Of a stretch of 57,607 nucleotides of DNA, positions 2,046 through 28,600 are shown in pieces; the first letter of the stretch is position 1; each line of letters begins with the position of its first letter. Below the pieces are notes generated by a model. It did not search any database and had not been told where the DNA came from. It worked only from the letters and a program-made list of their open reading frames with translations. Location: NCBI GenBank assembly GCA_009602725.1, contig WELB01000210.1, forward strand, positions 75,618-133,224. Reading direction: 5' to 3'. The stretch is from Spirogloea muscicola. Taxonomy: Eukaryota; Streptophyta; Zygnematophyceae; Spirogloeales; Spirogloeaceae. Made by a program: the position numbers and the translations under genes.

Positions 2046-3732
2046 CTACGCGCCGACAACTTTAGTGGGCTCTGTCGCCTCGCCCTCGCCGTCCTCAGCG
2101 GGCCGCTCCACCTTGGCACCCACCTCCTCGCTGTAATCCCCGTGCACCTGCACGCAAATTTGGAACAACAGCGTCAGCTCAAGGAGGGAGGTGAAAGCAG
2201 GGGCCAGGCTAGAGGGAGAGGGGTGTGGAGGGGCTGTGGCGGTCATTTTATGGCACGGCGGCACTACTCGGCGAGTGCCGCTCCGCCGCGCCATCTTCCG
2301 GCCGCAGCGCTCGCTCTGGGCGCCTACGCGGCAGTCGCCCCACCGTGAAACTGGGCAGGGTGCTGCTTGACTAGGGCCCCCTCCCCCTCTCCGTAACCTC
2401 CTCCCTCCTCTCTCGAGCTCTTTCCCTCTTCCTCCCTCGTGCTCCTATGACGTGTCCGCTCTCAGGAGTCCTCTGAGCTCGCCCCCACTTCGCTTGTACT
2501 TAGACTTCTTCTCACTACGTCTCTCGAGGTCTCTGCTCCTTACCTCCATAAGGCGGCTGAGGTCGAACTTGGGCGCCTTGAGCACCTTGACCTTGCGCAC
2601 GTACGCGTTCTGGAGCGGGTAGATGCCCGCCGCGGCCTTCTCGACCTCCTTGCCCATGACCTCGGGGATGAGCTTCGCCACCAGCTCCCGCAGGTCGCAC
2701 GCTGCCGACTCCTTCACCATGATCTCCCTCATCTTCCTCCGAATCTGAGCGCCTCAGTCATGGCCACCAACACGGCCATCAGGAAAATTGACCAGGGGTA
2801 AAGGGAGCGTGAACCTCAGGAGCAAGAGGAGGGAGGGGGAAGGTGGCGAGCAACGACGGACCTGGCGAATCTGCGCCGTCTGCGCGTAGCACGTGCGCTT
2901 GATCTGGTTCGGCCGCTTCTTGGTGAACGCAATGGCGAAGAGGCGCAGCGTGTAGTTGTCGGTCGTCTTCACGTCCACGTGCGCCTCGATGAGCGACTGC
3001 CACTTGCGCACCAGCGACCGCAGCTTGTCGGTCGTGAAGTCCATGCCCTGCGCCAACGCATGGCAATGGAGGGACGTCAGCCGCAAAGTGGCGAAGTTGG
3101 AGATGAGGACAATGTTAAGAAGGAGCAGAAGAGGAGTCGAGGAGGGCTGACCCAGAAGTTGGTGAGGACGTTGCGGCCCTGCACGTCCTCGGCGCGCAGC
3201 TTCATCTTGCGGAACGCCTGGTCCTCGTCCTGCTGCAGGTCCGCCAGCGACACCTCGAACACGCGGCCCTTGAGGCCGTCCGACGCGATCTGCACATCGT
3301 GGGCCTCGGCGTTAAGCACTTGGGCTCGAAGCTCGACCACACAGCGGCCTTGACGCTAACAGCGGCAGCCGAGCTGCCATGGCCGGCGGTCGTCGCGCAA
3401 CGCACCTTGGTGCCCTGGGTGCGCGTGACGAGCGTCTTGCCGATGGAGCGCTGCGTGAACATGGACGGCGCCTTGACGTCGTACCAGTCCTTCTTGGCAA
3501 ACGGGTCCATCCTGCACACCACAGCGAGCCGCGGCCGAGACCATCACACCCTCGCCAGCCACTAGAATCGCCACAGGGCCCCCTGGCCATCGTCGCCAGG
3601 CCCTCCATCGCCAATGGCTTCCTGACGACGAGATAGTGAGAGACGGAGCAGAGACGGAGTAAGAGTGGAGGAGAAGCTCCTCACGCCTTCTTCTTGCCGC
3701 CCTTCTTGCCCTTGGAGATGCGCTTGTTCTTC
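2046..3732 (-). CDS. RPS3A: 40S ribosomal protein eS1 (S3a)
   Basis: Structural protein of the small cytosolic ribosomal subunit. Minus-strand exons, 5' to 3': 3732-3685, 3511-3406, 3289-3152, 3047-2862, 2744-2544 and 2147-2046 (stop TAG). The joined product follows eS1 almost end to end: the basic start [15 protein letters not shown], then [69 protein letters not shown] and the tail [15 protein letters not shown]. All junctions keep phase and use GT-AG. The first coding exon is missing: the family begins M-A-V-G and 3732 is a splice acceptor completing a Gly codon. The upstream ATG must lie in or beyond the GCC repeat at 3784-3809, and I cannot find it. The gene is divergent from the GNAT gene. 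Family identity is certain; the start is not. Confidence 0.95.
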
Positions 3733-13500: not shown

Positions 13501-14492
13501 GGCCGATGTTGTCGAGCGTCGAGCCGAGGCGTACGGCGATGCGGTCCGGGTCCTGCACCTGCACCGCCGCCAGCAGGCCCGCCAGCCCGCCCTGGCCGCC
13601 GCAGCAGCGCTCGGCATCGCCGTCAGAATGCAGTCAAGCACAGGTCCTCATAGGGTTTAAGGTTCACGGTTAGGGCTTAAAGGTGTAGGAAAGTGGGTTG
13701 TAGGTTCCTGAGCACGACTGCAACCCACTTATCTGATGCAGTTAAGCTAATTGCTGACTCAGTTACTGTGACCAGCCCACAGGAAACCCAGACGCAATGC
13801 TTTTGGCTCAACCTTCAGCTCTCACTGTTCAGTGCTAACCTATCCTTGACCTTGACGGCTGCTGTAAACATCGCCGTCGACCTGGCAGCGGTATGTTGGC
13901 CTGACCAAGACCGTTGGCCTATCGACAATTCTCTTAACTGAATACTAACAGTGGTTACAAACAGGTACATGGGGGCGGCGCTCAACGCTAAACCCCTGAT
14001 GCTTGACCCTTGACATTCCTTAACCCTAAACCCTTAAACCCTAATCCCTAAACCCTAAACCTCCAGAATCCTAAACCCTGACCCTAAGCCCTTAAACTCT
14101 AAACCGTAAGTATCAAGTCATAATTGACATTGATTCCTAAACCCTTGAGACCCTCACCTGCTGGAGCATCGGCCCTAAGCTACAGTTATCTGATCCTTAG
14201 TTGACCGTTAGTACTAACCCTCGGAACCTGGACCCTTGACCTTGGACCCCGACGTTGACCTCTGACCCCCGACCCTGGACTCTGGGCCCTGGATCCCGAC
14301 CGTTGACTCTGGACCCTTGACCCTTGACTCTGAAGATTGCTGACTTTGGACGGGGACGACGACCGCTGCCCACTCAAAAGTCAGCCCCGGGCGCACCTTG
14401 TCGGCGACGATGGTCTCGTAGAGCTCGGCCCCCTGTGCGGCGTACTCGCTCGGCAGCGCCGCCAGGATCGACGCCTTGTTCTCGGTCGCCAG
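10578..14492 (-). CDS. CYP37: Plastid cyclophilin-like protein CYP37 (N-terminus missing)
   Basis: Chloroplast peptidyl-prolyl isomerase-like protein of the CYP37/CYP38 group (lumenal in plants). Minus-strand exons: 14492-14397, 13591-13484, 13003-12954, 12746-12644, 12450-12397, 12051-11899, 11323-11201, 10982-10933 and 10728-10578 (stop TAA), all in phase. Helical N-terminal part: ASILAALPSEYAAQGAELYE, GGLAGLLAAVQVQDPD, LGSTLDNIGQLEILQ. Cyclophilin part: VVLDGYSAPLTAGNF, EIPLEIKPAGEFQPLYRTPL, DGELPVLPMSVYGAVAMSHS, FFFYLYDKRN, SGLGGLTFDEGQFSVFG, LRTGDVIQSAKL. The order matches Arabidopsis CYP37 closely. About 295 residues are recovered. Roughly the first 100-160, including the transit peptide, are not found upstream, where the divergent TIFY gene starts within about 50 bases. 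The intron 13592-14396 carries telomere-like repeats. I do not see the usual catalytic Arg/Phe pattern of active cyclophilins, so isomerase activity is uncertain. Confidence 0.92.
13650..13690. repeat. Short telomere-like patch, TTTAGGG orientation
   Basis: The stretch reads tagggtttaaggttcacggt and then ttagggctta: two or three degenerate TTTAGGG units, opposite in orientation to the larger tract about 350 bp to the right. It lies in the CYP37 intron. Confidence 0.55.
13985..14150. repeat. Interstitial telomere-like CCCTAAA repeats
   Basis: About ten units of the plant/algal telomere repeat CCCTAAA and close variants (ccctaaa, cccttaaa, ccctaat) run in one orientation from about 13985 to 14110 and fade out by 14150. 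The tract is inside the CYP37 intron 13592-14396. It is too degenerate for a chromosome end and is flanked by coding exons of one gene, so it is interstitial. Confidence 0.8.
14215..14335. repeat. Degenerate CCCTTGAC / CCCTGGAC repeat tract
   Basis: Directly after the telomere-like tract come 12 or more short units built on gaccctt, gaccccc, ccctgga and gttgac. They look like a further-drifted extension of the same array. Reading frames through it are repetitive shadows and not protein. It ends about 60 bases before the CYP37 exon 14492-14397. Confidence 0.65.
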
Positions 14493-14540: not shown

Positions 14541-17500
14541 TTGGGCGCGGGCCCGCCGGCCGCTGCTGCCGCCGACCCCGCCGCCGCCGTTACGGCCGTG
14601 CACGCACACAGGCCGCCACTCAAGCGACTCTCGAACGACTCAGGCGGCGCGCGCGACGGCTCCTCCTCGCTGATCTTCGGCTCCGACGAGGCCGCGTCCC
14701 ACGACCCTGCCCTGCACGTGCTCGCAGCGGCCGCCGAGGGCAGCATAACCGGCAGGTCGGGCCCGAGACCCTCTCCTCCTCTTTTCACGTAGCGGCTAGC
14801 AGACGTCAGAGCCCGCTCACGAGCATGTCGCTGGCCGAGGGCGTGACACCGGCCGCATCTGGCCGGTGGCCCTCGAGGCTGGCCCGAGTGCTGCCGCCGT
14901 GCGCCACGAGCCTCATGTCCTGTGGTGGGGGAATGCTGCTGGAGAGCTTGCCGTGCTGAGACAAATGCAGCGCATGGTTGCCCGGTCTTTGATCTTTGAC
15001 GGCGCTCGCTGCTGATCACGCTGCTGGGCCTTGCCCTCGTCACCATGCAGCACGACGAGCCCGCTCTTCCACGAGCTGCAGCTGCCTCACCTCACGCGCA
15101 TGGCCGGGGGCGCCGGCAGCGGCCAGGCCCAGGCGCTCGGCCCGTCGTACAGGCTGGCCCAGAAGCCAGGAGCAGCGTGGGAGCACCAAGGCCCTGCCCT
15201 GGCTGCAGAAGTACGCCGGTCGGCCGAAGACGAGGGCGGCCAGGAGCTCGCCAAGCGGGTGCGGCTTGACGGCCCGGCCAGCCATCTGACCGAGGCGCAG
15301 GTCCGGGTGCTGGCTGCCCAAGAGGCGCACATCTTGCAATACCTGCAAGACCGAGGTCCGGCCCTTGTCCCCATGGCTGCCCTTACCCTGGCCCCTGCTG
15401 CCCTGTCCGCCACTTTGGACCTTCTTCTAAATCTCGCATGCACAGTGCCTCTTGAACGCTTCTCCACTCCTGCTTCGGCGTCGCAAGTTTGGCACTCGTC
15501 CGGAGGAGCTCGACTTACTTTTATCCGCTTCTCTGACGTCCAGCGTGTGTTGTGATGTACGATGGGTTACAGGCGTGCAGCTCACGGCGCAGCAGATGCG
15601 GGATGGCGGGCTGGGAAACCAGGTGCCAGTCAAGGACGACTCACGGCACGCCTCTGCTGCAACGCAGCAGCAGCTGCTGCAAAGCCCGACACTGCTGCCG
15701 GCATCGATATCAACCAAGCAGGCCATTCAGCAGCAGGACATGCGCGTGCAGTCTCGGCTAGCGCAGCAGTCGTCCCCGAGGCACGACGGTACCGACCAGC
15801 GCCGTCTGCCGCGCATGCAGCAGCCAATGCAAATCCCAAGCACCGGCCAGCAGCACCAGCACCAAGCACCGCCATCACCGTCATCGCAGCTCGCAGTCAC
15901 GGCACCATTGCCGTCCAGGCCGACGCCGGGGCCCTCGCTCCAGCAGCAGCTGAAGCACCTAGTGGGGCCCCATGGCAGCCGCCCTGCAAGCAGCGGGGCA
16001 CCCTCCCCCCCAGCAGCGCTGCCCGCTCGGCCTGCCCTGTCAAGTCCGCTGCTGCCTGTTGCCAAGCAACCGACAGTGTTCCGCCAGGGCAAGCTCTCGC
16101 CCCCGCTTGCAGCACGCCGGGGAGCGGCGGCCAGCACCCTGCCGCCCATGCACCGCTCTCCCGCCCAGACCGTGGGCAGCATTCCCACATTCGTAGCAGC
16201 CGAGAGCCAAGGAGGCAGCGCCGGCGGCGGCGTTGCGCGGCCAGTGATGTCGGCTCCGGACGCGCTGACTCGTGATGGTGGGGACTTCACCGTCCACAGC
16301 CCGTCCATAAGCCCACTGCGCCAGTACCAGCACAGCTTGGCCACCACGGGCTTCGCAGCAGCCGGCGAGCACCGGGATGGTGGCCACATTACGCAGCCCG
16401 CAGGCAGTGGCGGCTCGCAAGATTGGGGACGCACAGGAGCAGAGACCCGCCGTTTTGCCCGTCCTGCCGTGTCCGGGGAGCTGATGCGTAGCGGCGCACC
16501 CCTGCCGCGGAGCCCACTGGCAGGACTTCAGCAGTCACTACAGAGCATGCCTGAGGCAGTGAGGGTGCAGGTGAGGTGGCCATCACTTGCTTGGCCTCTC
16601 TTTGTGGTCATAGTGACATTGCTCTCGTTGTGATGTGATGCGGGTGGACTGCAGCATCTTGACGCTGCTGCCTGTCCTCACATTGGTGATATTATTGAGC
16701 AGGAGAGGAGTCGAAGCAGCCCCTTGGATGGCCACTATCGTCGCGATGTGGCGTTGCGCACGCCTGTGGCACCGCTGATGGAGGCATCTACCAGGTGAGC
16801 AATGCCTGGTTACCACCGGCTCAAGTTGCTCAATGGCGCCATGTCTACTAAGTTGACCTATAGCTCAACTTCATATGCAGCGTCAAATGAGGTGGCTGCT
16901 CCTTGTCAGTCCAGTTACTGCTTTGACGACTTGTCAATCTCCACATGTGACCTGAGCTGAATCAAGCTATTGACGTACCTCTGACATCCCGTGCAGGAGT
17001 GTCGCAAGCCAGGGCCAAGCTGAGAAGCAAATGACCATATTCTATGGTCGAGAGCTCCACGTCTTTGATGACGTATCTGAGGAGCAGGTGTGGTGTAGGT
17101 CCTTGTCACGAGAAGTCACATTCAGAATACGTAATGGGTCAAGGGCAAGCTTGCCTGTGTTTTGAGAGAGGAAAGCAGCAGCTCAACCTTGAAACACTTG
17201 CTCCGCACATTCAGTTGGCTGCTTCCTGCTCTTTCTTGTCTGATGTCAACAGAAGCTGTTGGTCTAACTTGTGGAGCTTGTCTGGGACCCCTTCAAATAT
17301 GTGCAGGCAAAGAAGATCATGCTGCTGGCGGCTGCGCAGCGGGGCAACAGCTACTCGACATCGTGCGCTCCCACTGGGGAGCCATCAGTGTCTCGCAGCA
17401 TGCAGCGCAGTGCGCGACGCACTTATAGCGTGGCTGACACGATCGACTCCAGGCCCCGAGTCAGTGGTGGCGGTGGTGGCGGTACTGGCAGCGGCTGGAT

Positions 17501-19362
17501 GGAGGCAACAGTCCATTCGGGCGGCTCAGCGCTGCCGGCAGAGTCCTATGGTGGCAGCAGCGCTGGTGCCGCTGCAGAGGGCTTCCTGCAGGGTCTGCGG
17601 AGAATTGGGGGCCGGGCTGGTGAGGGCAGCGTGGCCGGCGGAAGTTCTCTCTTAGGCCGCGGTGATGCGGGTGGGGGCGGGGGCGGCGGTGAAGGCAGCA
17701 TAGTCGGCGGCAACGAGGTGGCCAGTCTCGCCCGGCAACTCGACGACGCACGAGCAGGGCACCCACAGTATGCCGCCCAGCCAGGCGACTGGGGGGAGGG
17801 CTCGGTGACGGCCCCAGCGCGGGGCGTCAGCCTCGCCCTTCGCGAGCAGGAGCTGCAGCCAGGACGGGTGGTCGAGTCGAGGCCCAACGTGGTCAGTAAG
17901 GCTGGCAGCGGAGCTTTTGCGCCTGTGATGGTCTCGGAGCAGAGGGAAGATGCCACTGGCCCCGGCAGCAGTGGCCAGGTGGTGGGCGGCACCAGGCCTG
18001 ACGTGGATCTGAGGTCGTCGCCAGGTAGCTTGGGTGCTTCGAGGAGAGGGGCAGCCGCTGACAGTGGCTGGGCGGCACGGGAGGATGCCGACCGCCATCA
18101 AAGTCAAGAGAGTCCTGCTGCACAGGGCGGCAAGCCCACGGTGTTCTCAAGGGCCGAGGATGGTCGTGCAGCGACAGAAGAAGGGCTGCCCAGGGCGGCA
18201 GGAGACTGGCGCGGCTCGAGGTCGCTGCCTCGAGAGCTGCTGGCAACCAGCAGCTTCCTCACAGCTGCCATGCCCGTGGATGTGCCGCCAGTGGCCAGCA
18301 TTCCAGAGCCAAGGACGCTAGGGAGCAGCGGAGGTGGTGGTGGAGGTGGAAGAAGGCTGGCTGCCCATTACCCTGCTGGTACCGAGCGGGAGCAGAGCCA
18401 GATGGCGTGGCATGCTTCTGGCTCCGAGAGGGCTGGCAGACACATCGAGTCACCTCGCATGGCTCCGCAGGGAGGTGGGCAGGGAAGACTTGAGCACGAC
18501 AACAGCCCAGCTAGTGCAGATGCACGGCATGGCAGGTAGGACAATTGAAGTATTAAGCGACGACCTTTTGTTGCCACGCAACATACATTCTTCTGACACT
18601 CGGATACTTCTATGTCGAATATGCAGTAGCATGTGCACATCATAATCGCCAGTGGCGTTGCATCTCTTCTTCCGCGGCTACTTTGTGCCGTCTTATTGAT
18701 TCCTCATCAAATGGCAGCGCTGCAATGAGTCCTTTCAAGGTCCGCAAGTGATGCTCTGTGCGAGCTCTCTTTCAGCTGTGTGCTGCAAACCCCGCCAGCA
18801 CGCTTCTCTCAGAAGGAAGGCAGATGGAGGGAGGCAGGTACAGAACCCTTGGGAAGGGGCTGGGTCCTTGTGGTAAGTAGGAGCTTGCATCTGTCGCTCC
18901 TCTCTAAGACGGAGATAGTAAGACGTTGATGTTATGCAGTCCGGTGGTTCATATCCTCGGTGTTCTCGATTCTTTGCTGTAAGGAGGAGGGCCAAGGAGA
19001 GGGGTTTGCCGAGCCTTGCATGGCTTCTTCGGGTGCAGGATGCGGACCCTGAAGAACACATTGCAAATCACGTAGCACACAAATGGTTTCCTAAGGTACT
19101 CTCTTAGCAGCTGGAGTCCCCAAACAGAAGAACTGGTGAAGAAGCTGGCTCCAGGGCTCATGCAGAGTTGGATCTTGGAGGGGCATGGGGGATGTCCAAG
19201 GGCCTCAAATGGTCGCTGTGGAGCATCAATCACTGCAGCTGGATGTCAAGGACTACATGTGGGTGGGATTGGCCTCGCCTGTCATCAGCACCGTCTCGCA
19301 TCTCGATCACCTCTTCTGCGGTGTGGACACTTGCCGCTGCATCAGCGCTTTCGAGAGCGTGA
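14541..19362 (+). CDS. Large TIFY (ZIM)-domain protein
   Basis: Exons: 14541(start uncertain, no ATG seen)-14755, 15051-15355, 15573-16570, 16703-16794, 16997-17087 and 17307-18535, all in phase, giving about 975 residues. Exons 5 and 6 join to form a full TIFY domain at about residues 545-580: EKQMTIFYGRELHVFDDVSE followed by AKKIMLLAAAQRGNSY. It keeps the TIFY core, the VFDDV strand and the A-x-x-I-M-x-L-A helix. In plants this domain mediates dimerisation and NINJA co-repressor binding in JAZ, PPD and ZML nuclear regulators. The rest is Gln/Ser/Pro/Gly-rich disorder. No GATA finger is seen. Tentative 3' exons, in phase, are 18718-18739, 18940-19095 and 19111-19362 (stop TGA). The middle one has a basic CSRFFAVRRRAKERG patch faintly like a Jas/CCT motif. 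If 18535 is not a donor, the protein stops at TAG 18537-18539. Function is inferred as nuclear regulation. Confidence 0.75.
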
Positions 19363-19405: not shown

Positions 19406-19856
19406 AGCTGGCAAGCACAACAGAAGAGGAGGGAGGGGCTTCAGAGCGCCTCCCGACATCCCTCACGCCAGGCGGCGCGACGCCCGTCAGCCTGACGGTG
19501 CCACCGTCGCTGACGCGCCGCGAGTGCCCCGCGCGCGATCGGCCCCCACCTCGCCCGGCCCGGCGAGAATGCGGGATTGCACCGCGGTCTTCCTTCCTGC
19601 GCCGGTTGGCCCAGCGAATCTGCGGATACCCGGAACGGGGATCGCCCCCCCCATCATTATTATCGACGCCCGCCGCAACGCCCGCTCCGATCCCTCCCAC
19701 GCCGGGACTGCCGCCGCGATCAGCGGCGCCTCTCTCGGCGGCGATCGCGGCGGCCCTCCCGGCGCCGATCGCGGCGGCTCCCCAGGCGTCGCGCGAAGCC
19801 CTCGGCCCCGCCGCACTCCCCGCGGGCCGGGAGCGGGCGCCGAGCGTCCTGCGGCC
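19406..19856. other. GC-rich 5' region of the PGAM gene
   Basis: About 450 bases of GC-rich sequence with many ggcggcgatcgcgg-like near-repeats (about 19690-19800). The frame is open back to 19389, but the PGAM family starts close to the ATG at 19857. I read this as promoter and 5' UTR, although an N-terminal extension cannot be excluded. Confidence 0.5.
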
Positions 19857-22800
19857 ATGGGGCCGCTGACGAAACCGAGCTTCCAGCTGAAGCCGCACGC
19901 GGTGCTGGCGCGGGGCAAGCCGGTGGCCGTCATCGTGCTGGACGGCTGGGGCGAGCAGATCCACGACCAGTACAACGCCACCTTCGTGGCCCCCACGCCC
20001 ACCATGGACGCCCTCAAGCAGGTCCGGGCTTTCTGTGGCATCCCTCTGCCAGCTGCGCTGGCCATCGATGCCCATTAGCTGAGGGCCATTTGTGGCGTTG
20101 CGAGCGGCGCAGGCGGCGCCCAAGCTGTGGCGGACGGTGCGGGCGCACGGCCCGGCGGTGGGGCTGCCCAAGGAGGACGACATGGGCAACAGCGAAGTGG
20201 GCCACAACGCGCTCGGCGCCGGCCGCATCTTCGAGCAGGGGTCAGCCGCCCGCCCTCCGCTCTGCAGCCCCTGCTACGGGCTCTGCGCGACGCGCCGTAT
20301 TGCCGCGCTGTATCCATTGCGGCGCTGCCGCTCGGCATTGCGGCTAGAAGGCCTGTGCTCACAGCCGGGCCTGGGGCGGTGCAGGGCGGGCCTGGTGGAC
20401 AACGCTCTGACGACGAAGAAGCTCTTCTCCGGCGAGGGCTTCAAGTGGCTCTCTGAGTGCTTCGAGAAGGGCACTCTGCACCTCATCGGCCTCCTCAGCG
20501 ATGGCGGCGTGCACTCGCGCTACGACCAGCTCCAGGTGTGTCAGAATCTCCTCCTATCACTCCGGCACACTTCCCCTGACCTGCGGCAAAGAGCTGTTAC
20601 AGCAGCCTAAGCTACTGACCTGACAAGCCATAGCTGCAGAGACCAGGAGGATGTGGTTTTAAGCTTAACAAATGCAATTTCGTGGTGACATCCTAGGCGT
20701 AGACCTCTTTCCAAGAGAAGGGCCCCTTGAAATGCGCAGAGCATTGTTGATACCGTACTGTCGCTGTCATACTTGTGGTCCTTTGGCGAAGAAGCTGATC
20801 AGGATGTCAGCTGGATGGAGCAGATGTTGCTCAAGGGTTCCGTAGAGAATGGAGCCAAGCGGATACGCGTGCACTTCTTGACAGATGGCCGTGATGTCCA
20901 AGACGGGAGCAGCCTAGGCTTTGTGGAGCAACTTGAGAAAGACCTTGAGGAGCTGAGGTCTGGCGGCACAGATGCGCAGATAGCTTCTGGAGGTGGCCGA
21001 ATGTATGTCACCATGGATCGGTATGAGGTGAGGCCTAGAAGACTTGTACAGCTCCAAATCTGCTTCACTCAAGCATTTAGGCAGGCAGTTGGTACAGACA
21101 GCATAATAATGCAGTGCAGCTCAAGTGCTCTGCTGTGCAGCTATGTTCTGCTTCTGATTGTGGCAATCAAAAGCAACATCCTCCATAATTTCACATAGAG
21201 CAGACCAGTGGTCTTTTACATTGCAGCCCTTTTCATGCAGAACGATTGGAATGTGGTGAAACGAGGCTGGGAAGCTCAGGTACTCGGAGAAGCGCCCAAC
21301 AAGTTTACCAGTGCTGTGGAGGCGCTGAAAAAGCTGAAGGAGGCTGACCCGAAAGTCAATGATCAGTACTATCCACCGTTTGTCATTGTCGACAAGGACG
21401 GGAAGGCTGTTGGCCCCATTGTCGACGGGGACGCGGTGGTCACTTTCAATTACCGAGCAGATAGGATGGTGATGCTCGCAAAGGCACTGCAGTACGAGGA
21501 CTTTGACCATTTCAACAGAGTGCGCTTCCCTAAAATCAGATATGCGGGTATGATGCAATATGATGGAGAACTGAAGTTGCCCAACAAATTCCTCGTTAGT
21601 CCGCCCGAGATTGCGCGTACTTCTGGGGAGTACTTGGCCCACAATGGCGTTCGCACGTATGCCTGCAGGTGAGTGATGCATTGCTGGGCTTGAGGAGGGC
21701 AGTATATCAGAGATTCGTGGTTGTGCCTCTTATTGTTCTTCCGGTGGCGGCTCACTAGTGGCAGGACACGCTAATAGCTGCTCTAGAGACAGATAGCATT
21801 TCACATAGTCAAACTTTTGAGATCCCACTCATGTCTGGTCGTGCTTGCGACAATGTCTTGGCATATCTCCAACTTTCAGTGAGACCGTGAAGTTTGGGCA
21901 TGTCACTTTCTTCTGGAATGGGAACCGATCAGGTTACTTCAATCAGGACTTTGAGACCTACTTCGAGATTCCCAGTGACTCTGACATCAAGTTTAATGAG
22001 AAGCCGCTGATGAAGGCTCTTGAGATTGCTGAGAAGGCCAAGGAGGCATTGCAGAGCGGAAAGTATGATCATGTGAGCACCAAGCGGATTTTTACTTCTT
22101 TGTGGGGCCGGTTCAAACCTGCATTTCAAGCCAAGCTCGCTTTGTACTTTGACTTACTGATGATGTCAAGAAGCGCGTCGGTCACTTGTGCATGCTTGTT
22201 GTCTTACAATAGAAGCCTCCCTGTGCTGATCATGTGGCTAACAACTGGCAGGTGCGGGTCAATTTTCCAAACCCTGACATGGTCGGGCATACTGGTGACT
22301 TGGAAGCCACCATAGAGGCTTGTGGTGTGGTTGACAAGGCCATCAAGGTTAGCTTGCATCTCAAGCAAAGAATGGAGCATAAGCCATCTTAGTGTCCAGC
22401 ACATGCAGTGTATGGTGCTCAACTCCCTGCAGTCGTCAAGTATTGCATGTGAACACCCCGCTATGAGCTGAATGAATGGATGCCTACATCGATGTACTAC
22501 TATGAGGCACCAAGGCTGGAGGTCTTTGTCCCATGCATACCTGTGCAGGTAATCCTTGATGCAGTTGAAGAAGTTGGTGGCATATTCCTCCTTACAGCAG
22601 ACCACGGGAATGCAGAGGACATGGTGAAAAGGAATCCAAAGACTGGGGAGCCACTGAAGGATAAGGCTGGAAAGCTGCAGATCCTCACGGCTCACACTTG
22701 TGCACCTGTAAGACCTCAAGCCGATGCCTGTGGGGTGGGTTTGCCTGGCAAGGCTGCATGACGCTCTACAGCTTTTGCGTTGCGGCATTTGGTGGGTGGA

Positions 22801-25660: not shown

Positions 25661-28600
25661 CTATGCACCTTTGGTGTGCCCGTTCCTTGGGCCTACGTGC
25701 GTAGGTAATTCGGCTTCGTCGACAAAGGGGGGGGGGTTGACTGCAGCGTGCAGCTGTAGCTTGGAGATGCGCACAGCGCCAATGAGTCGCTCCGGCAACT
25801 CCTCATGCGTGTTACTCTGTCCAATGCCCAATGGGACCCAGCAGCGAAGGCAAATCTGCACGGTCAGAGCCAAGCGCAGGAATTTCGTGCATCTGCTACA
25901 GCGCACAAGCCTAAGAGGAGTGCATGACCATTGACCCAGGGCGCGCCAGACCAGGTCTGAACGGACCTGTACAAGAAAGGCCATGTCGACCACCAGGTTG
26001 GTGATGTATCCAAAGACAAGCCCGAGGACTCCATTGGCCACTGTGGACGAGCCAATGTTCACATCAATCTGGACAGACAAGGAGGCTGCTGAGAAGCATG
26101 CAGCTGAAAACCATAGACAGTGGCTTGGAGGCAGTCAAGTCTCAAAGAGAAGGTACTCAGGGTGTGCAGAGCCAATGCCTCACAGGTCTGCTAAGTAACA
26201 GTCCGGTCCCTCCAAGCTAGTGCCATTGAACGATTCTTCCTGTCCAGACGATCAATTGACAGCTGTACTGATTACTCTAGGAGTCGCACAAAGAGGCATG
26301 CGCAATGACCTCTAAGTATCCATGACGCCTGTAGTAGGTGCAGTCGACGGCCTTTCCAAGAAGACATGGTGTGCTCCCAACACTTTGTCGTACTATCCAT
26401 GAGCCCTGCGCTTGAAGCAAAGCCACAGGAAGTTCTTAGCTGGCAGCATAGTGAAGCAAGATAGACCTGGCTTGTCACCCCACTAAGGGAGACTAGCATG
26501 TCACCAGTGTAAGGGAGAACTTTTACTGGATGCAGGAAAGCAAGCCTAAAGCTTATCTGCTGCTCAGTATAAATTTCAGTGCTCACTGACCTTTGGCACA
26601 GCAGGGATGAGCTTAAAGCGACTGTTTCGGAAGCTGTCATCTCCGTCAAGAAATCGCTGCAGCGCGGATTTCAGAGGTATTGGCTTGATGGCCACAAAGT
26701 AGAAAACCATGCTGTAATGTGTCGCGCCAGGGACCTGCATGTGAACGTATGACAATTGGCAGCATTTGGCATGTCATAGCTGGCCAACACAGGACAGGCA
26801 GAAGCGGCCAAAGGAGTAGTACTGACACGCACTACCCCCTGCACTGAGCCCAGGCACATTGGTACCTCACTTGCAGAGTATCGCCTACAAGCTAACCTTC
26901 CAGATAGCATGGTCTGAAGCAAATCAGCAGAGAGCTACCCTGCATGATTCATGTCTGGCTCGTACACCAAAATCACAACGACAAAGGACAGCTATTTACT
27001 GTGTGCCCCAATCTAAAATTAAATATGAGGAGTGTCTTCAAATGCTGTCTGCAGGGCTTCTCATATACCTGCATATTGACAATGAGCACAAACATTCCAC
27101 GATCTATAGCAGCCTGCCACATGGAGGCAGAACACAGCAGAACACATATCATGAATGTTGGACATTGCCACACGCTGTTGTGAGTCACACGGCTCTAGAC
27201 ATGCACGTCATAAGGTCAGAGCAGTGTTTATTATTTGAATGGGTCACCGCAGAAAGGCTCAAAGCTGTGACAACAGCTTGCAGATCATTGCATGGTAGCA
27301 AGAGCAACCTGAGCTGCACATCCTCTGCAGCGAGCCAAGTGGTCCATGCGGATCTGCGACTTGTACCAATCAACTGCAACCAAACTCATCAAATTCTCGC
27401 CAGCCGGAGCCTGTAACAAGCCATCAAGGGCTTGACTAAGGTCATGTGCCAATACTCCATCTCCACTCACTGTCGTGAATATTTTGTTCGGACTAATTAA
27501 CACCCTGCTCTTCAATCTCTACTCATGCCGTGTGCCATTGCCATGCCAAGTCCGAATCCTAAGCCCTGAAACTTTAAAACCCTCCTCCTTCTGAGGTGTG
27601 AATGGGAGCTTCCTGGGCAGATGACAAATCGAGCACCAGTCGACTGAACGCTAATAAAAGATGACCACACCCTAAGCTCACCATTTCATACATTGCCATA
27701 CCTTTCCTTTGTTCGAAAGGAACATCTTGCTACGAACTCTGAATTTGCAAGGATCTGGCACGCTCCAGCAACATTGGCCATCTTCGTGGTCTCCCTCCTC
27801 CAGAGACCCATAAAAGTGAAGATCATCAAAGGACAGGTCCGGCACTGCTTGATCCTGATCTGACCGTTGCGAATGTCCTGAGTATACAAATAACGAAGTC
27901 TCAGATATGGGTCAGTCCTCATGAGGACATATAAAAGTCTGAAGAGCAATCTAACAAAACGTAATGCCAAGTCGAAGTGTACAACGAGCTTGATGATGCG
28001 TGGCTTGATGTATTTGCCTACAAGGTGCACCCTAAACAGACTCGTCGCACTGTAAGCTGGTTGTCATCAAAATTGGGAGTTACCTGGTGTTGATCTGAAG
28101 CCATCAGAAGGGATTTGTTCCTGCCAATTGCAGTAGTTATACTGCCTAATGAGCAAACAGTAGCTCAAGCTGTTCACACTTTTTCCAGAATTTCTGACAA
28201 TACGATCACTTTGAGTGATCTTCCTTTACATCAATAACATGCTTTCGTATGAGAGAAGCAACACACCTCTTGAGCTGCATCATACATTGACACCAGGAGT
28301 CCGGAGTCTTCGTCATCTGAGTAGTCATCTGTGGGTTGATGAGGATATCGCAGTGGGCTCAACGAGTGAGCAGGCACTTCTTTACCATTGACCTTCTCGA
28401 CCAGCTTCTTCAACATTGCTGCTGGGTTTCCATGTGACAGACCCACAAGCTGAGCCATCCTCTGGACAGGCCGAGGCACATAATCTTCATCCCTTGCAGC
28501 GAACCACTCGCGTAACCCTGATAAGCAATCAAGAGCAAGGATATGGAATCTCAACTTGCTGAGATGGAACACTTACATACCCCATGAACTCTTCAGACCC

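Follow-up and report, generated by a model that had tools for sequence, protein, structure and literature searches.

The window analysed here (C210:75618-133224, the whole stretch of 57,607 bases, with a GC content of 0.56) carries a six-exon gene, of about 950 amino acids in this copy, whose product contains a TIFY domain. It is likely to be a streptophyte-algal, probably zygnematophyte, TIFY-only gene kept in three homoeologous copies and specifying a TIFY8-like nuclear adaptor. On sequence grounds, the TIFY domain is more than a chance match. The gene belongs to an already known plant gene family, here represented in an alga, and brings no surprise on the deep history of green plants. Taken together with a complete ZML gene in the same genome and a search that found no JAZ gene, the three TIFY-only genes of a zygnematophyte would represent a concrete pre-JAZ state.

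A TIFY domain divided by an intron

In the window copy, exon 5, read in the frame that starts at 16998, translates as SVASQGQAEKQMTIFYGRELHVFDDVSEEQ and finishes with ...TIFYGRELHVFDDVSEEQ, while exon 6 translates as AKKIMLLAAAQRGNSYST and opens with AKKIMLLAAAQ. The intron between them has GT and AG ends, lies in phase 0 and falls inside the TIFY domain. Searched against the PF06200 profile (cut-off 27 bits), the joined exons gave 46.5 bits (E 2.3e-12) over positions 2-34 of 34, covering the TIF[F/Y]xG core and the helix, whereas the unspliced read-through of exon 5 gave 31.4 bits over positions 5-26 only; the splice therefore completes the domain. The first-pass annotation had proposed that two exons join in phase into a TIFY domain and had suggested this profile search. 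Both the score and the intron borders read in the DNA agree with it, and its numbering of the pair as exons 5 and 6 matches the six-exon model (Table 1).

The same two-exon layout, with GT and AG at the identical place, is found in all three copies of the gene, on contigs C210 (the window), C59 and C105. When the exons of the C59 copy were joined by hand, the resulting protein of 997 amino acids matched TIFY with 47.2 bits and, up to an E value of 5, no further Pfam family, which places it by its domain content in the TIFY subfamily, where TIFY is the only known domain. A PF06200 search of the assembly (153,112,186 bases in 471 contigs) returned matches for four of five candidates, namely these three copies and a ZML gene on contig C114. 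The TIFY exon of the latter stops at profile position 26, with a GT donor and a CAG acceptor before VQAVLLLLGG, so that the position of the intron is common to both kinds of TIFY gene, TIFY-only and ZML.

Table 1. Coordinates of the TIFY-only gene and associated features (window positions unless a contig is named)
Feature	Position	Strand	Remarks
Exon 1	14545..14755	+	homologous part only, 5' limit uncertain; three-way alignment
Exon 2	15051..15355	+	KRVRL basic motif and conserved HLTEAQVRVLAAQEAHILQYLQDR (15283-15354); open in all three copies
Exon 3	15573..16570	+	Gln/Pro/Ser-rich linker
Exon 4	16703..16794	+	from the three-copy comparison
Exon 5	16997..17087	+	first part of TIFY, 17016-17087
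Intron within TIFY	17088..17306	+	GT...AG, phase 0; same position in C59, C105 and C114
Exon 6	17307..18539	+	TIFY helix 17307-17333 (AKKIMLLAA), Gly/Ser/Ala-rich tail, TAG stop
Segment with adjoining iPGM gene	19746..22614	+	syntenic with C59; blocks shared with C105 reach 21323, where the fetched stretch ends
ZML gene	C114, about 281090-282630	-	TIFY, CCT and GATA; profile scores of exon pieces

The three copies and the 5' end of the window copy

The TIFY-only gene occurs in three syntenic copies, referred to below as A (window, C210), B (C59) and C (C105), which share 88-92% DNA identity in their common blocks. These blocks run from 14544 as far as the ends given in Table 1, with gaps between them, pieces of up to 80 bases being left unlisted, and the iPGM gene is the neighbour common to the copies. 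Its exons in the window (20731-22312, +) match iPGM_N with 55.1 bits and Metalloenzyme with 51.6 bits. A scan of the window for neighbouring genes covered 20 open frames, four of which had a family; the window also holds a ribosomal S3Ae exon (2757-3311, -) and an exon of the EDR2 C-terminal domain (25664-26134, -).

All six exons are open in the three copies and the introns have GT and AG ends. Ka/Ks ratios were computed with our own script from Nei-Gojobori counts, over the part from 14626 onwards (upstream of this point the start of exon 1 is unaligned) and short of the last residues of all copies, C being shifted there. They amount to 0.365 for A-B, 0.376 for A-C and 0.466 for B-C (929, 921 and 924 codons, respectively). 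Over the 37 TIFY codons they fall to 0.097, 0.206 and 0.266, rough values that depend on two to six changes of each kind. These ratios indicate that the gene is under purifying selection. The earlier view that the gene is native, and that contamination is hard to invoke, is sustained by the synteny of the copies and by this selection. We give a negligible probability to contamination, or to a recent acquisition from a land plant, as the source of the gene: no point was found in favour of either, the copies sit on contigs of 248, 718 and 492 kb with the iPGM gene as common neighbour, and the intron in the TIFY domain occupies the identical position in the ZML gene of the genome itself.

The 5' end of the window copy differs from that of the others. 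Its homology to the B and C copies starts only at about 14544. A start codon is visible in exon 1 of copy B (MAGHSPPP...), where copy C has N; upstream of the homology, the window copy consists of unrelated DNA with an in-frame stop and lacks the start codon of B. Plant-type telomere repeats (CCCTAAA, three units, 14024-14059) are located some 500 bases upstream of the break. Loss of the 5' end, a start placed in exon 2, or an assembly error could each explain the window copy. A related reading is that it is a decaying duplicate whose function is carried by the C59 and C105 copies, and the homology break, the missing start codon, the upstream stop and the nearby CCCTAAA repeats all speak for it. 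We nevertheless hold decay to be unlikely, since 948 codons are open between 14626 and the stop at 18539, the Ka/Ks ratios of the window copy against the two others are the 0.365 and 0.376 reported above, and the shortened C terminus belongs not to the window copy but to C105, which is shifted there and ends some residues earlier than the other copies.

Host lineage

The host is almost certainly a streptophyte, judging from the sequences of its photosynthesis proteins and from its gene content, and very probably a member of the Zygnematophyceae. The PsbO protein (C222) was compared with chains of solved structures, among which the five best scored 391-371 bits and the next one 310 bits. We take 5xnl, 3jcu, 5mdx and 8c29 to be the pea, spinach, Arabidopsis and spruce sources of PsbO, and 8bd3 and 6kac to be Chlorella and Chlamydomonas. 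Among the 60 best of 625 matches to an Lhca4-type protein (C19), the 18 leading rows, at 341-291 bits, are single-domain Lhca4 or P4 chains; they are followed by the multi-domain 9vfj_11 (272 bits) and by 7yca_4 (243 bits). In that same set of 60, the Lhca4-named chains 8cmo_4 and 7dz7_4, presumably from algal complexes, reach 221 and 214 bits. For an Lhcb protein (C37), the 60 best of 649 matches comprise a best single-domain chain at 444 bits (7xqp, which we assume to be moss) and other land-plant Lhcb chains down to about 408 bits, then 402 (9is4, 6kac), 362 (Bry-Lhcb1) and 353 bits (Lhcbm-I). Two multi-domain 9vfj chains owe their 555 and 442 bits there to summed repeats, and algal chains outscore some land-plant Lhcb3 chains. 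Of the three host markers, Lhcb taken by itself is the weakest. Land-plant chains thus come first for PsbO, Lhcb and the Lhca4-type protein, most of the organism labels being assumed. Zygnematophyceae are not known to possess flagellar dynein; none of three candidates in the genome matched a flagellar dynein D4 model, although misses by such a search do not show absence. As for rbcL, also considered as a host marker, no match was found in the assembly.

A GRAS search of the genome gave 92 matches, which places the host among Zygnematophyceae or embryophytes on the dating of GRAS given in the accessible text of PMC11096116. Three near-equal matches recur for TIFY (C210/C59/C105), TDBD (C108/C230/C12), LisH and GRAS, and the sets C53/C160/C91 and C40/C77/C55 are likewise threefold. 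Such loci agree with the triplicated genome described for Spirogloea muscicola (PMC7994812), and the host is probably this species or a close relative. Against this, PsbO and ZML each turned up at a single locus rather than three, and masked stretches may hide copies.

The first-pass annotation had taken the host for a chlorophyte alga, and had drawn from this that the TIFY domain either predates the split between chlorophytes and streptophytes or was transferred. The general algal look of the window, its GC content and its GC-rich low-complexity proteins are in keeping with a chlorophyte, and GATA fingers of type IVc, which are those of the ZML class, are noted in chlorophyta as well (PMC11608367). 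Against this, land-plant chains lead the top single-domain chain of chlorophytes or other algae by about 41 bits for Lhcb, 61 for PsbO and 98 for the Lhca4-type protein, with labels that are partly assumed; the 92 GRAS matches point the same way, and TIFY is placed outside the green algae in the consulted portions of PMC8891376, PMC9581314 and PMC3880041. A chlorophyte host, which we consider very improbable, was rejected on the three streptophyte-type photosynthesis proteins and the GRAS matches. The inference of an origin before the split, or of a transfer, falls with that premise, and TIFY is not pushed back to the base of green plants. Catalogues of chlorophyte TIFY proteins no longer bear on this genome.

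Published accounts of TIFY in algae vary. PMC8891376 and PMC9581314 describe TIFY as confined to land plants or as lacking in green algae. In PMC3880041, Tify figures among the families that neither red nor green algae possess; a search for JAZ in algae came back empty in PMC6829463, and PMC8836299 connects TIFY with the emergence of land plants. More recent work reports JAZ protein domains across streptophyte algae with functional JAZ limited to embryophytes (PMC11289646), and an absence of JAZ in most algae, Klebsormidium flaccidum being the exception (PMC8079949). A TIFY domain in a zygnematophyte is therefore to be expected, since the newer work places JAZ-type domains in streptophyte algae. 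Within the accessible open-licence literature, we found no description of a chlorophyte TIFY protein, which does not prove its absence from print, nor, in the literature searched, of TIFY-only or ZML genes of Spirogloea.

Relatives of the gene and candidate partners

By architecture alone, the gene product is likened to Arabidopsis TIFY8, each protein having one TIFY/ZIM domain and no other family, and TIFY8 being without Jas (PMC9967580, in the text available). The algal protein differs from TIFY8 by its length of about 950-1000 amino acids, its long Q- and G-rich linkers and its three copies. A known N-terminal domain, QLQ among those considered, was rejected: no Pfam family appeared up to E 1 or E 5, and the one PDB match was due to chance. 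The TIFY core and helix are also like those of JAZ1 (TIFY10A, PDB 8t2i chain J; phmmer 19.8 bits, E 0.0085). The window gene differs from JAZ repressors in having no Jas match downstream of TIFY, and it does not classify as JAZ.

The ZML gene on C114 provides the other term of comparison. It combines the three domains of ZML/ZIM proteins (class C GATA), with TIFY at 42.2, CCT at 43.8 and GATA at 48.8 bits, the exon pieces being scored apart, and its GATA finger reads CX2CX20CX2C, with a spacing of 20; it is accordingly a ZML gene. One copy was found, and the adjoining DNA reads N. The window gene, on the other hand, gives no CCT or GATA match and has a core of the TIFY rather than the TLSY type, so that it does not classify as ZML. 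In a genome search for the Jas motif (PF09425), one of four candidates matched, and this was the CCT exon of the C114 gene, with 35.4 bits against the Jas model. A sole Jas match in a ZML CCT exon would be odd in a land plant. No JAZ gene was found by that search, misses of this kind not showing absence. Given the Jas score of the CCT exon and the lack of a JAZ match, the alga appears to have a TIFY-only protein and a Jas-like CCT segment in separate genes. In such a pre-JAZ state, where adaptor and Jas-like segment are still apart, the assembly of JAZ would become testable.

All three copies show good conservation of the N-terminal block HLTEAQVRVLAAQEAHILQYLQDR. The stretch around LTEAQVRVLAAQEAHILQYLQDRG was compared with a provisional PPD domain sequence, a comparison chosen after the likeness had been noticed. 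It scored 36, 37 and 43 in copies A, B and C, respectively, and is the top-scoring 66-residue stretch in each of the three proteins. These scores were reached by 3, 2 and 0 of 2000 segment shuffles and by 13, 7 and 0 of 300 whole-protein block shuffles; in a background of 1643 segments of the fetched DNA, the gene's own loci included, two reach 36 and one reaches 37. Such values, seldom attained by shuffling, raise the possibility of a forerunner of PEAPOD (PPD), in which a PPD-like N-terminal motif and TIFY were joined before the truncated Jas* was added. The wide spacing of bryophyte PPDs and the divergent PPD domain of Marchantia (PMC8836299, in its accessible part) would accommodate it. 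We consider this quite improbable: the comparison is post hoc and uses a provisional sequence, the alignment is gapped and covers only the first part of the domain, and the gene yields no Pfam family for this block, no solved relative and no Jas match. The resemblance to PEAPOD amounts to a partial N-terminal likeness to a domain of 53-57 residues, plus TIFY. No Jas* was found in the window gene, although a motif of 15 residues could escape the Jas model. If the forerunner reading were true, a PPD-like motif and TIFY would already have shared one protein in the lineage sister to land plants, when Jas* had yet to be acquired. JAZ and PPD would in that case derive from a stem protein of this kind combined with the Jas-like CCT segment of ZML, both being present in this alga in separate genes.

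For the likelier TIFY8-like adaptor, a role may be proposed by analogy. Arabidopsis TIFY8 is reported to use its ZIM domain for binding NINJA and PPD proteins and to act as repressor of a transcription factor (PMC9967580). By this analogy, the algal protein would be a nuclear adaptor that does not itself bind DNA; its TIFY domain would pair with itself or with the ZML protein of the genome, and/or bind a TIFY-binding adaptor, and in this way a repressor would be brought to a transcription factor. The nuclear location, the pairing and the repression are drawn from the comparison with TIFY8, and this mechanism, taken alone, has roughly an even chance of being right.

Searches for the components of such a system gave mixed returns. 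Over the 924-932 aligned residues of copies A, B and C, no LxLxL or DLNxxP motif occurs. With an EAR/NINJA model, none of four candidates matched, nor did any control, so that this search is not informative. LisH_TPL matched in four of five candidates, at the level of the domain rather than of TOPLESS. For F-box_5, 12 of 17 candidates matched, 10 of them over the cut-off, without distinguishing COI1, and three of six KIX_2 candidates matched, each with an internal stop and none assignable to KIX8/9.

The TIFY-domain-binding domain (TDBD) matched in nine of 12 candidates, and proteins carrying it are, with the ZML protein, possible partners of the TIFY-only protein. Seven of the nine loci were read (C108, C230, C12, C19, C29, C82 and C15, leaving C128 and C85), and none of these seven is clearly NINJA. 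The TDBD piece of C15 matches the ULT1 and SAND models below their cut-offs. In the parts scanned, C12 combines MBD with TDBD and C108 carries a PHD finger (24.4 bits, cut-off 24), a build that we take to be IDM1-like. C108, C230 and C12 represent one TDBD gene in three copies.
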